57,680 nt of DNA from Bacteroidaceae bacterium. Its GTDB lineage: Bacteria; Bacteroidota; Bacteroidia; Bacteroidales; Bacteroidaceae. The stretch covers positions 1 to 57,680 of the forward strand of contig JAFYPU010000031.1 in the NCBI GenBank assembly GCA_017547385.1. Direction: 5' to 3'. The notes under the pieces are model-generated. The model saw only the letters and a list, made by a program, of their open reading frames with translations, was not told the DNA's origin and did no database searches. Positions 2,553 through 57,201 of the stretch are shown piece after piece (the first letter of the stretch is position 1; every line of letters begins with the position of its first letter). Both the position numbers and the translations under genes were made by a program.

Positions 2553-5500
2553 TTACTTACTGTATTGCTCAATGTCGGACATAGCATCGGCGTTGTTGAT
2601 GTCCTCCCACACGATGGGCTTCACCTTTTCCTGCAGATACTGGAAGATGACAAACAATGCAGGAATGATGAAAATCTGGAACAACATACCGATAAGCATA
2701 CCACCGATGGCGGTTGTACCGAGCGAACGGTTACCATTGGCACCTACACCGAAGGCAAACATCATGGGCAACAAACCGATGATCATGGCCAACGAAGTCA
2801 TCAAGATGGGGCGCAAACGAGCACCGGCTCCCAACACAGCAGCCCACGTGATGCTCATGCCCATCTTGCGACGCTCAAGGGCAAATTCCACAATAAGGAT
2901 GGCATTCTTGGCCAACAGACCAATCAACATAATCAAGGCAATCTGCACGTAGATGTTGTTGGCCGCTTCACCAAAGATGGGTACCACACTGTTCAGACCG
3001 CCCATACCCCAAATGAAGAGGAACGAACCGAGCAGACCAAAGGGAACAGAAAGCAGTACGCCCAAGGGCAAGATGTAGCTCTCGTATTGTGCAGCCAACA
3101 AGAGGTAAATGAAGACGAAGCAAAGGATGAACACGTATGCTGTGGTGCTTCCGCTGCTCTGGCTTTCCTCACGTGTGGTTCCAGAATACTCGAACGAATA
3201 TCCCTGAGGCAGGTACTGAGCCGCCACTTCATTGATGGCCTGAATGGCCTGACCGGAGGTGTAACCGCTGGCAGGGTTACCATTCACAGCCATTGAGGTG
3301 TACATATTGAAACGGTTGATGTTGTCAGGTCCGAACGAGGGCGAAATGGTTACGAACTCGGTGATGGGAGCCATCTCTCCCTTGTTGTTACGCACCTTAA
3401 TCTTATAGAGACTTTCGAAGTTGGTGCGGTCGCTCGGTTCACCCTGCACCATCACACGATAGAGCTTACCGAAACGGTTGAAGTTGGACGAATACAATCC
3501 ACCATAGTATCCCTGCAAAGTGGTAAGCACTTCGGCCGGCGAAATTCCGGCACGCTTACATTTTGCAGCATCGATGTCGATGAGATATTCAGGGAAGTTG
3601 GGGTTGAATGTAGTCTGTGCCGACTCAATTTCCGGGCGTTTTTCAAGTTCTGCCAAGAAGCTCTTAGCCACCTCGTGGAACACCTTGATGTCGCCACCGG
3701 TACGGTCCTGAAGGTTGAAGGTGAAACCGTTTGTTACACCATAACCCGGAATCATAGGCGGTTGGAAGAATAACACCTGTGCATCCTTGAAGACATCACG
3801 TGAACGGAGATACAAGTTGGCAAACACCACGGTGGAACTTTCCTTTAGTCCACGCTCTTCCCAGTCCTTCAACTTCACGATGAATGAACCATAGGAAGGA
3901 CCTTGTCCACCAATGAAGCTATAACCGGAAATCATGGTCGAACTTTCAACAGCGGGCACTGAACGCACCAAACTATCTACCTTGCTAAGCATGGCCTCAG
4001 TCTTGTCTTGCGAAGTGCCGGGAGGCATTGTTACGACACCCATGATGGTACCTGTATCTTCAGAGGGAACAAGCGCAGTGGGCGTGATATTCATCAAAGC
4101 AATCAGTCCGACAAGGCTGCATGCCACAATGATGAGCGTAAGCACGGGGCGCTGGATGAATTTGAGCACCGCCTTTTTGTACTTCTGCACCATGTTGTCG
4201 AACGAATTGTTAAAGGCATTCTTGAACTTGCGAGTTGAAAGTCCTATCAGCGCAAGAATACTTATCACAATCAACACGGTAGTAATCACGGGATGTTCTT
4301 CGATGTTGAACATGCCTGCAATCATTCCGATGATGGCAATGATAATAAAGAGCACAGTAATAATGGGATGCAGGAACTTACCTACAGATTCCACATACTT
4401 CTGCACCATGTTCTGACGCGCTTCCTTGAAAGCCACACCCATGCGCTCCTTCAACGTAGAGTCAGTGTGGTGGGGTTTCAACAGGATGGCACACAAGGCC
4501 GGCGAAAGTGTCAAGGCGTTGACAGCCGAGAAGGCAATCGCAATGGCCATCGTGATACCGAACTGACGGTAGAACGTTCCGCTGGTTCCGCTCATGAAGC
4601 TCACGGGAATGAACACAGCCATCATCACCAATGTGATTGATACAATGGCACCGCCCAATTCACGCATCGCATCGATAGACGCCTTGTTGGCTGATGTATA
4701 TCCTTGGTCGAGCTTGGCATGCACACCTTCCACCACCACAATGGCGTCGTCCACCACAATGGCAATGGCTAGCACCATCGCCGAGAGCGTCAACAGGTTG
4801 AGCGAGAAGCCAATCATGTTGAGTGCAAAGAAAGTACCGATAAGTGCCACCGGAATGGCAATGGCCGGGATGATGGTGGAGCGCATATCCTGCAAGAAGA
4901 TGAACACCACAACGAACACGAGGATGAATGCCTCGATAAGCGTTTTCACCACTTCATGGATTGAGGCAAAAAGGAAGTCGTTCACGTTCTGCGCGATATT
5001 GATTTCCAAGCCGTCGGGGAGGTCTTTCTTGCATTCCTCCAGCAATTGTTCGATATCCAACACAATCTGCGTTGCATTCGAACCGGCTGTTTGCATCACA
5101 ATGGCAGACACAGCGGGGTTGCCGTTCACCTTACCCGAGAACGAATAAACCATTCGACCCAGTTCCACGCGCGCCACGTCCTTCACACGCAGCACGGTTC
5201 CATCGGGATTCGAGCGAATTACAAGCTCTTCAAATTGGCTCGGCTCCTGCAAACGACCTCTGTAACGAAGCGTATATTGATATGTTTGGTTCTCGCGTTC
5301 ACCAATGCTACCCGGTGCTGCTTCAATGTTTTGTTCGGCCAAAATTCCGGCGATATCGGTGGGCACAAGTCCATACTCAGCCATCTTTTCCGGATCAAGC
5401 CAGATGCGCATTGAATAGTCGGCACCCATCACCATGGCATCACCTACACCTTTCACACGCTGAATTTGCGGAATGATGTTAATCTTGGCGTAGTTTTCAA

Positions 5501-7351: not shown

Positions 7352-7587
7352 CTCAATAAAACGCAAAGCGCAGCAAAAGTTTCCAACCTAAAACCTCGGA
7401 TGTTACAAATAATTAACAACCACCGCCGGCAGTATGGCCAATATGACACATAGAGTAATCAAATCTGTGCTATTATCGAGAGAAACTACGCTTTTGATGA
7501 ATGACAAAAACAAATCCAAAAGGCCTCTCTCGGAAAGGAATTTATGAAATGCGAGATATTTCAACGAAAAACGAAAGGCCGAAGCAC

Positions 7588-7655
7588 AAAAATCTGCAGT
7601 GCTTGCAGAATTTTCTGCAGTGCTTGCAAAAATTTCTACAAGCACTGCAGAAATT
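7588..7655. repeat. 21-nt-unit dyad element, copy 1
   Basis: Three consecutive 21-nt units: two direct units with core CTGCAGTGCTTGCA and a third inverted unit (CTACAAGCACTGCAG). The outer units can pair. Related copies lie at 28594, 45317, 51624, 56835 and 57112, always between genes. The unit length is seven codons, which explains the repetitive short open frames seen across it. Confidence 0.8.
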
Positions 7656-17713: not shown

Positions 17714-17744
17714 CTGCAACGGCGGAAACTCCCCGCCGTTGCAG
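17714..17744 (+). terminator. Strong hairpin after the gene at 17257
   Basis: A perfect 12-bp stem (17714-17725 with 17733-17744) with a 7-nt loop. It is not followed by a U run, because the 21-nt-unit dyad element starts immediately. It could still end or stabilise the upstream transcript. Confidence 0.45.
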
Positions 17745-17814
17745 CAAAAGTGGCAAGGCCTGCCACTATTGTGGCACGGCGTACCACAAAAGTGGCAGGC
17801 CTTGCCACTTTTGC
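17744..17814. repeat. Three-unit dyad element with unrelated sequence (GTGGC type)
   Basis: Three 21-nt units built on GTGGCa-GGC-CCAC. The outer arms (GCAAAAGTGGCAAGGCC... and its exact reverse complement) pair over 24 bp. The middle unit is itself a hairpin (TTGTGG...CCACAA). The design (three 21-nt units, A-B-A' dyad, intergenic) is the same as in the GCAGTGCTTG elements, but the sequence is different. Confidence 0.85.
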
Positions 17815-28593: not shown

Positions 28594-28661
28594 AAAATCT
28601 GCAAGGCGTTTAGAAATTTCTACAAGCACTGCAGAAAATTCTAAACGCCTTGCGGATTTTT
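28594..28661. repeat. 21-nt-unit dyad element, copy 2 (altered arms)
   Basis: The middle unit is the standard TTTCTACAAGCACTGCAGAA. The outer units read CTGCAAGGCGTTTAGAA and TTCTAAACGCCTTGCGG. Both arms differ from the other copies but still pair with each other (one mismatch). Confidence 0.82.
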
Positions 28662-28714
28662 GCCCATCGGGCAGGCAGTTTTCACAAATGAGTTGAGAAG
28701 AACTCTTTTCGCTT

Positions 28715-36950: not shown

Positions 36951-36958
36951 TATCTTTG
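36951..36958 (+). promoter_or_regulatory. -7 box of the HU-HIG gene
   Basis: TATCTTTG matches TAnnTTTG exactly. No good -33 element is visible, which is common for promoters that need an activator. The palindrome array begins 16 bp downstream. Confidence 0.5.
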
Positions 36959-36974
36959 TGGCACTCTTGATGAA

Positions 36975-37060
36975 TTATCATGCGCATGATAAGAAATTAT
37001 CATCAGCATGATAAGAACGTCTCATGCGCATGAGAAGAACGTTTCATGCGCATGATAATA
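36975..37060 (+). promoter_or_regulatory. Array of four palindromic sites with 22-bp spacing
   Basis: Four dyads with cores CATGCGCATG (36979-36988), CATCAGCATG (37001-37010), CATGCGCATG (37023-37032) and CATGCGCATG (37045-37054); core starts are exactly 22 bp apart. The first site is a perfect 18-bp palindrome (36975-36992). They lie in the leader of the HU-HIG gene, downstream of its -7 box. They would act either as operator DNA on one face of the helix or as a row of RNA hairpins. Confidence 0.9.
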
Positions 37061-37140: not shown

Positions 37141-37791
37141 ATGGCTATCAATTACGACATTTACAAAAATTCCGGATGCCTCAGAAGTGAAAACAAGCAC
37201 CACTTGCGCATCATCGAAAACAAGACCACCACAAGCATCACACTGGCCGAGCGCATCGAAAAGGCCTGCTCGCTCACCACCTCCGATGTCAAGGCTGCTC
37301 TGTCGGCACTTGCCTCCTCTGTGCGCGAAGAGTTGCTGGCCGGCAACGGCATTCACCTGGAAGGACTGGGCTATCTCTCGCTCGCCATGGAGGGCGAAAT
37401 CGAACCCGACCGCAACGGACGGCTTCGGGTGAAGCATCCCCGCGTGAGCAACGTGCTCTTCAGACCCGAAAAAGCATTGATGCGAAAACTGCAAGACGCG
37501 CAGTTCACCATCACAAAGCACGCCGGAAAGCACTCGCGCAACCTGAGCGAAGCCGAAACCGAACAGATTGTCTCCCGACTGCTCGAAAAGCGCACATTCT
37601 TCACAGCCCAACAATTTGCCACTGCCTCCGGCATGACACAAGCCACCGCTTACCGCACACTGCGCAAGCTGTCGGACAACGGAACACTGAAGAACATAGG
37701 CACACCCTCGCGCATGATTTTCACTCATGCCGACAGTGCTTCTTCCGACAGCGTGGAGAATCCTCAACAACCAACAAACTCGCAACAATAA
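37141..37791 (+). CDS. HU-HIG DNA-binding protein with C-terminal winged helix
   Basis: 216 residues from ATG 37141. Residues about 1-125 form the HU-HIG domain typical of Bacteroidetes (M-A-I-N-Y-D-I-Y-K-N near the start, V-K-A-A-L-S-A-L in the helical part, H-P-R-V-S-N-V-L-F-R-P in the arm region). Residues about 135-195 add a helix-turn-helix (F-T-A-Q-Q-F-A-T-A-S-G-M-T-Q-A-T-A-Y-R-T), so the protein has two DNA-binding units. The tail is Q/S/N-rich. The four-palindrome array immediately upstream is the obvious candidate binding site, suggesting autoregulation. A 63-residue gene follows 30 bp downstream. Confidence 0.88.
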   Translation: MAINYDIYKNSGCLRSENKHHLRIIENKTTTSITLAERIEKACSLTTSDVKAALSALASSVREELLAGNGIHLEGLGYLSLAMEGEIEPDRNGRLRVKHPRVSNVLFRPEKALMRKLQDAQFTITKHAGKHSRNLSEAETEQIVSRLLEKRTFFTAQQFATASGMTQATAYRTLRKLSDNGTLKNIGTPSRMIFTHADSASSDSVENPQQPTNSQQ

Positions 37792-51460: not shown

Positions 51461-51623
51461 GCAATTTATGCCGATGTTTCTGCCTTGCTTATGTGAAAAG
51501 ATGCTGCAAATAAGCAGGGAATGTGTCAAAATGTGCGTTTTTCCGCAACGCTTGCTGATTTATGATTTATCCCATTTCGGTTACGGCTTAACAATGGGTA
51601 AAAACACCTCGTGCTTTTCTCAT

Positions 51624-51688
51624 TCTGCGCAGTGCTTGCAGAAATTTCCGCAGTGCTTGTAGAAAATTCTGCAAGCACTGCAGATTTT
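51624..51688. repeat. 21-nt-unit dyad element, copy 4
   Basis: Two direct units with GCAGTGCTTG cores and one inverted unit (GCAAGCACTGCAGATTTT), a total of about 65 bp. It lies beyond the terminator of the yceD-der operon. Confidence 0.82.
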
Positions 51689-57111: not shown

Positions 57112-57201
57112 AAAATCTACTCGGCGAGTAGATTTTTCTGCGAGCACCGCGCATTTTTCCCCGAGCACCGGAGAAATTTCTGCGAGCACCGGAGAATTTT
57201 G
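57112..57201. repeat. 21-nt-unit element, copy 6 (extended array)
   Basis: It begins with a closed palindrome (AAAATCTACTC-GGC-GAGTAGATTTT), then three or more same-direction units with GCGAGCACCG cores. It ends 19 bp before the -33 box of the next gene. Confidence 0.72.

Follow-up and report, generated by a model that had tools for sequence, protein, structure and literature searches.

The window, by which we mean the whole stretch of 57,680 nucleotides analysed here, carries at 36975-37058 an array of four dyads whose centres, on inspection of the sequence, lie exactly 22 bp apart. This array, called a ladder below, stands between a -7-like element and a gene whose product is a candidate ladder-binding protein. 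The features of the locus are the following:

36951..36958, forward strand: TAnnTTTG (-7-like) element TATCTTTG, 5' of the ladder and also present in the nearest relative of the window's genome
36975..36992, no strand: ladder dyad 1, TTATCATGCGCATGATAA, a perfect 18-bp palindrome
36997..37014, no strand: ladder dyad 2, TTATCATCAGCATGATAA, core imperfect
37019..37036, no strand: ladder dyad 3, core TCATGCGCATGA at 37022-37033
37041..37058, no strand: ladder dyad 4, core TCATGCGCATGA at 37044-37055
37141..37791, forward strand: gene of the candidate ladder-binding protein, HU-HIG plus winged-helix-like domain, 216 amino acids

The 12-bp cores start at 36978, 37000, 37022 and 37044 (spacing 22, 22 and 22) and read CATGCGCATG in three of the four dyads and CATCAGCATG in the second. 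A sequence-only reading of the window had reported four palindromes at exact 22-bp spacing, the first of them a perfect 18-bp dyad (36975-36992, TTATCATGCGCATGATAA), and a -7 box at 36951. All of this can be seen in the sequence, with TATCTTTG present at 36951-36958 and TAnnTTTG being what we take to be the -7-like consensus. The same reading had placed the core starts at 36979 and onwards, which gives the spacing correctly and marks the starts of CATG, the 12-bp cores beginning at 36978; it had also assigned one palindromic core to all sites, which is true of three and wrong for the second. The linkers of the array are partly self-pairing as well, so that dyads recur at a half-pitch of 11 bp. 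Scored as an 88-bp ladder, the array reaches 86/102 (0.84), and one block-shuffled copy of 446 kb of the window's genome held no place at 0.54.

The gene at 37141-37791 lies beside guaB and near a RelA/SpoT gene, with no obvious mobile island. Its product matches HU-HIG (PF18291) over residues 1-123 with 95.1 bits (cut-off 26.2), and profile A2, used below for an order-wide search, matches HU/IHF chains. The C terminus is winged-helix-like: HTH_11 reaches 23.1 bits, under the 25-bit Pfam cut-off, with other HTH families weaker, and the order H-E-H-H-E-E is predicted at residues 137-197 (two-row alignment; block pLDDT about 62-81) in a structure model whose mean pLDDT is 48.5 as a whole and whose HU part is of low confidence. 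A 2017 analysis of the HU-HIG family by Burroughs and co-workers reportedly proposed a link to the recognition of invasive DNA. Pfam describes PF18291 as 'HU domain fused to wHTH, Ig, or Glycine-rich motif', a description line that names neither a DNA target nor a repeat. The 63-residue ORF that had been taken for a downstream partner of the gene was rejected as a conserved partner, as it is nearly confined to the window's genome and its nearest relative (among 74 homologue loci it occurs only in these two, plus one hit with E = 0.04).

The array is one of many. In the window's own assembly (G000; 2.35 Mb, 86.5% complete), TTATCATGCGCATGATAA has 71 sites at no more than 3 mismatches, against 2 for the reversed-pattern control, and four TCAN6TGA dyads at 22 bp, again with up to 3 mismatches, give 38 overlapping matches in G000 and 15 in its nearest relative, G008, with controls of 0 in both. 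This dispersal led us to reject the array as the private operator of one gene, and the earlier idea of a 'self-contained regulatory unit' is not supported either, given the many copies elsewhere in all gene orientations. The 22-bp copies examined in G000 are intergenic, in convergent, tandem and divergent settings, and two or three of them overlap short, doubtful ORFs; none of the genes starting within 330 bp of the examined 22-bp arrays is recognisably HU-like by eye. An ordinary autorepressor with dispersed arrays as the operators of its target genes would account for the array before its own gene and for a protein with a winged-helix-like domain. We regard such a classical regulon as rather unlikely, since the convergent, tandem and divergent intergenic positions of the arrays in G000 are unlike those of promoter operators and, by eye, no shared function is apparent among genes starting no more than 330 bp away.

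We scored ladders with a period of 21 or 22 bp in a 446-kb sample of G000, comprising one whole contig and parts of others with the window included and some stretches picked for holding HU-HIG genes or arrays. In this sample 45 ladders reached 0.54 or more, and in a single block-shuffled copy of it none did; judged by eye, a few of the 45 are coding sequence or simple repeats. By eye, the ladders of G000 form at least six classes, of which class A (22 bp) is that of the window array and the others are these:

Class B: TCAAGCGCTTGA, 22 bp
Class C: TCATCCGCATGA, 22 bp
Class D: TCTGCAAGCACTGCAGAAA, 21 bp, the commonest
Class E: GTGGCAAGGCCTGCCAC, 21 bp
Class F: only before the second HU-HIG/winged-helix gene of G000

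No HU-HIG/winged-helix gene for classes B-E was found in the G000 assembly. Arrays of classes B and C (for example L143, L145, L148-L151 and L153-L157), having no recognised cognate in this 86.5%-complete assembly, are orphans or have lost their partners. The window itself holds five more ladders, of 21-bp period, at 7570-7653, 17727-17810, 28596-28679, 51603-51686 and 57114-57197; they score at least 52/99, three of them pass 0.54, and they belong to classes D and E with mostly three units each and no cognate HU-HIG/winged-helix gene found. A scan of 399 genomes with the TCAN6TGA pattern matched 117 and was used as a lead only; in some genomes the reversed control outnumbered the pattern (1 match vs 86 control matches in G280). 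The maximum of that table, 528 forward matches of the four-dyad pattern with a control of 25, was reached in G425 (genus g54).

Ladders are the usual finding upstream of HU-HIG genes fused to a winged helix, with a different sequence in each case. HU-HIG homologues were listed in 53 of 101 genomes. Within 450 bp upstream, a score of at least 0.54, on a scale that mixes dyad and tandem similarity and favours AT-rich repeats, was reached for 52 of 69 proteins of at least 180 amino acids, 2 of 16 shorter HU-HIG proteins and, in the same loci, 4 of 70 other promoters. Among the 17 of 69 winged-helix-fused genes below this cut-off, one fails for lack of upstream sequence and a few others look like worn ladders by eye. 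The dyads thus recur before the close orthologue and before many distant homologues, as opposed to the absence that would have spoken against a link between array and gene. A phylum-wide protein search returned, beyond G000, full-length matches only in G059 and G128, both of its own family; it was profile A2 that extended the set of homologues across the order.

We also applied a strict rule, by which the dyad and tandem parts are both required and the ladder must score above 100 shuffles of the same sequence. We drew up this rule with the first set already in view, and settled on the 0.54 cut-off before scoring the second, out-of-sample set; the latter consists of previously unused A2 matches from an order-wide search, with at most nine candidates scored per genome. 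Under the strict rule, ladders precede 43/67 winged-helix-fused genes and 1/16 HU-HIG genes without a winged helix in the first set, 21/33 and 5/18 in the second, and 4/100 and 3/100 control promoters from two genomes (n = 200). By eye, two or three of the five passing HU-HIG genes without a winged helix are genuine and one is a simple repeat. The 0.54 cut-off gave 23/33 and 7/18 in the second set. With the loosest rule, which asks only for a score above shuffles, the counts were 59/67 and 28/33 for the winged-helix-fused genes of the first and second sets, 5/16 and 7/18 for those without the fusion, and 17/100 and 7/100 for the control promoters, some of which perhaps hold dispersed ladders. 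Duplicates (L208, L210 and L212, identical to L031, L038 and L042) were dropped, and L211 and L038, which have short upstream sequences, were left out of the strict-rule table and counted among the 69. In named records the upstream ladder scored above 40 shuffles in 11 of 11 homologues and at least 0.54 in 9 of them; these come from Bacteroides finegoldii (four), Parabacteroides distasonis (one), Phocaeicola massiliensis (two), Bacteroides sp. CACC 737 (one) and gut phage scaffolds flagged as unverified (three).

A row of four RNA hairpins in the leader had been offered as the alternative to DNA sites; such hairpins would attenuate or stabilise the transcript. The TAnnTTTG element just upstream implies that the array is transcribed here if that promoter is used. 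Of 50 homologues, by contrast, 19 have this element downstream of the ladder, 15 have it no more than 80 bp upstream and 8 have none, and the mismatches in the sense-strand dyads are not clearly biased towards wobble pairs (G.T 143, A.C 120 and other 320, of 1800 pairs). Because a clear wobble bias is missing and TAnnTTTG occurs on either side of the ladder, we favour an action as DNA over one as RNA. The dispersed copies in all orientations, the lack of any Rfam match at E <= 1 and the strict pitch of 21-22 bp, for which there is no obvious RNA reason, likewise speak against hairpins, and we consider an RNA function very improbable.

The pitch of the ladders follows the protein tree. On a quick tree of 50 winged-helix-fused proteins, 48 of them labelled (L028 and L187 have no period label), the period of 21 or 22 bp changes 3 times, compared with a mean of 11.5 for shuffled labels and none of 500 shuffles as low, a comparison that asks only whether the period is clustered on the tree. 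Twelve of the 13 rows with a 21-bp period fall in one clade of 13. We infer that the protein may set the pitch of its ladder. Mantel tests of ladder similarity against protein similarity gave rho 0.13 for the winged helix (1/500 permutations; partial 0.10, 6/500) and 0.12 for the HU part (2/500; partial 0.08, 20/500). These correlations are weak, with the winged helix hardly above HU, and we give them little weight. L038 and L043, whose repeats show no dyads by eye, were left out of both the tree and the Mantel test.

In the cases tested, the ladders are private to their genomes. The promoter ladder of the HU-HIG gene in G057 has 26 forward and 25 reverse sites in that genome, its own promoter included and the rest at about 13 further places, and 0 sites in six other genomes. 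The corresponding ladder of G090, which belongs to another family, has 26 and 22 sites at home, spread over the promoter and about eight further places; in six other genomes it has no more than one site per strand. By eye, the leader ladders of G013 and G045 resemble dispersed arrays of their own genomes.

The genome G918 allows paralogues to be compared with each other, as it has eight full-length paralogues and one partial one at E <= 1e-15 among the matches listed. We scored 400 kb of it, roughly a tenth of the genome and leaving out the promoters, and obtained 37 ladders at 0.57 or higher, compared with 0 in one shuffle; by eye, four or five of the 37 are simple repeats. Seven promoter ladders were compared with these arrays, and clear dispersed matches were found for L315 (0.80), L325 (0.83 and 0.86), L326 (0.81-0.85) and L327 (0.77), with the best foreign ladder reaching 0.40-0.64 against the matched arrays. 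For the ladder of L284 the dispersed match is weak (0.70 vs 0.64 for the best foreign ladder), and several other ladder classes in the sample had no match among the seven.

A comparison with G008 indicates which parts of the array are conserved. The orthologous gene there is 90% identical, and the array occupies the corresponding position. If the six bases at the centre of each dyad are set aside, the two arrays differ at 3 of 64 positions; the intergenic flank on the 5' side differs at 32 of 212 and the leader on the 3' side at 8 of 80, and within the cores 19 of 24 bases differ. At the window locus the half-sites and linkers therefore appear to be under constraint, and the cores appear to have been exchanged together. 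Both genomes have the same predicted recognition helix despite the 19 changed core bases, and the core is thus probably not what the protein reads. In four other ortholog pairs, 11, 1, 18 and 0 of 24 core bases, 7, 9, 18 and 0 of 64 non-core positions and 0, 4, 26 (not aligned) and 0 of 40 right-flank positions differ, so the constraint seen outside the cores at the window locus is no general feature. Both core types occur in G008, even in a single array. By flank similarity, eight of 10 G008 array regions pair with array regions of G000, with varying quality and in one case on one side only. At array C12 of G000 the flanks are about 360 bp apart, and the same flanks in G008 are about 110 bp apart; the latter is possibly an empty site. 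Between L138 (5337-5424) and L166 the two genomes show almost no difference in the array and in roughly 300 bp of its surroundings, possibly through recent exchange, as their homologous regions are otherwise about 80-90% alike.

Repeats that move without any tie to the protein have to be weighed at this point. The ladders might be passive, MITE- or BIME-like elements spread by an unlinked transposase or by recombination, with one copy placed by chance before the HU-HIG gene and the protein not their binder. They are intergenic and numerous, flank homology extends 33-296 bp past the array in several copies, at one locus G008 seems to lack the array between aligned flanks, and the published account of BrickBuilt in Porphyromonas gingivalis classes it as a MITE that has a leader, a tail and terminal inverted repeats (PMC4596501). 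Chance settling nevertheless leaves unexplained why ladders precede most HU-HIG/winged-helix genes, each with a different sequence, why the pitch follows the protein tree and why several classes in one genome (G918) are matched to paralogues, and we consider passive spread unlikely.

BrickBuilt is the closest described repeat that we found and may be a member of the ladder class described without its protein. As given in the main text and Table 1 of its description, it comprises 23-nt tandem repeats in 19 intergenic copies, with BrickBuilt_14 between PGN_0871 (minus strand) and PGN_0872 (plus strand, 'DNA-binding protein (PF00216)'); no word beginning 'palindrom' is found in that main text, and the abstract and the passages on the element name no cognate protein (PMC4596501). 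The window's ladder family shares the intergenic position, the many copies and the copy before a HU-type gene. It differs in its 22-bp period and four units, compared with a 23-nt unit accompanied by leader, tail and terminal inverted repeats.

RAYT genes encode a Y1 transposase and are flanked by two inverted REPs, with several species-specific pairs in which repeat and protein coevolve, according to the passages on these elements in PMC2817692. As there, a gene comes with a palindromic repeat of its own that abounds in its genome (the window's genome, G057, G090 and G918); here, however, the protein combines HU and a winged helix, and the 21-23-bp ladder of 3-4 dyads is confined to the upstream side. 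Apart from the upstream 22-bp ladder, nothing in the loci L016-L045 scored above 49/102, so that no REP-style flanking on both sides was seen. The likeness to REP and RAYT (PMC2817692), together with the presence of Y1_Tnp genes in 5 of 8 ladder-bearing genomes searched, could be taken to mean that a Y1/HUH transposase copies the ladders, recognising the palindromes as single-stranded hairpins. Yet the gene at the ladder is a HU-HIG/winged-helix gene and no transposase, and G019, G045 and G013 (89-94% complete) carry ladders with Y1_Tnp not found in them. We give copying by such an enzyme almost no chance.

Among bound repeats, the BIMEs of Escherichia coli are presented in the same source as intergenic palindrome mosaics bound by IHF and gyrase (PMC2817692). 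The resemblance, as far as that account goes, lies in palindrome mosaics bound by a protein of the HU superfamily. IHF is one general protein, and to our knowledge private, paralogue-specific ladders and a gene-tied autoregulatory copy are not part of the BIME description. Noc, MatP and ParB are site-specific proteins with many short palindromic chromosomal sites that are conserved over wide taxa, whereas the ladders are phased arrays with a sequence particular to each genome and paralogue. A 2025 survey of extragenic palindromes gives many in three Bacteroidota genomes, two of them Flavobacterium, and its main text makes no mention of Prevotella or Porphyromonas (PMC12306157). In the open-access literature searched, we found no paper that links HU-HIG to repeats.

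These observations would be explained best if the adjacent protein bound the phased sites as DNA, along one face of the helix, and in this way controlled its own gene. We consider it likely that the array is one copy of the dispersed class-A ladder family, situated in the control region of the gene for its probable binder, which would regulate its own expression there and coat the dispersed intergenic copies. Each HU-HIG/winged-helix dimer would read one dyad through half-sites TTATCA/TGATAA, and a pitch of two helical turns would bring neighbouring dimers onto one face of the DNA, where they could stack cooperatively. Bound at 36975-37058 the protein would autoregulate its gene, and at the intergenic copies it may form nucleoid-type or insulating complexes. 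The comparisons across genomes suggest that HU-HIG/winged-helix genes and their own ladders constitute many privately matched pairs of protein and DNA site. Bacteroidales would hold many such pairs, each paralogue with a ladder sequence private to its genome or close relatives, and protein and ladders would drift together. What appears to be new is that a non-catalytic HU/winged-helix family is paired with ladders that are both private and dispersed, neither half being new alone.

A wider idea, which we put forward tentatively and would not call probable, is that the ladders are open-ended private 'address codes'. HU/winged-helix paralogues, each recognising one ladder sequence and hardly anything besides, would spread and re-diversify together with their ladders and mark the chromosome with lineage-specific nucleoprotein sites, which may organise the nucleoid or tell own from foreign DNA; the logic would be that of RAYT-REP pairs, with no transposase involved. 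If the pairing is confirmed, a class of intergenic repeats in Bacteroidales that has lacked an explanation would gain a cognate factor, and HU-HIG/winged-helix proteins would gain a likely function. The many natural pairs of protein and phased DNA sites would then also be useful for studying the evolution of DNA specificity, and genomes with several paralogues would supply their own control, the ladder of one paralogue against that of another.

Several minor observations concern the surroundings of the ladders. Some class-A arrays lie within a longer dispersed repeat of approximately 300 bp, with copies about 70-97% identical (L133, L135 at 4462-4756 and L140, and L160 and L163 in G008). Four contigs, L134 (G000:C4), L137 (C8), L141 (C17) and L147 (C30), begin in their first 150-180 bases with a common end sequence, TGTCAACTTTTTTCAGTACACCT, which is probably that of an insertion sequence; this end joins class-A arrays at an AGTG motif beside the ladder, and the element seems to target the flank of the class-A repeat. 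In the Bacteroides records L371, L372, L374 and L376, a divergent VapE, DUF3874 or BT4734/BF3469 gene faces the HU-HIG/winged-helix gene across the ladder. Finally, NZ_OY725757.1 (L373), a Parabacteroides distasonis 'plasmid' in PLSDB, carries rpsL, fusA and ribosomal protein operons and is probably a chromosomal piece mislabelled as a plasmid.
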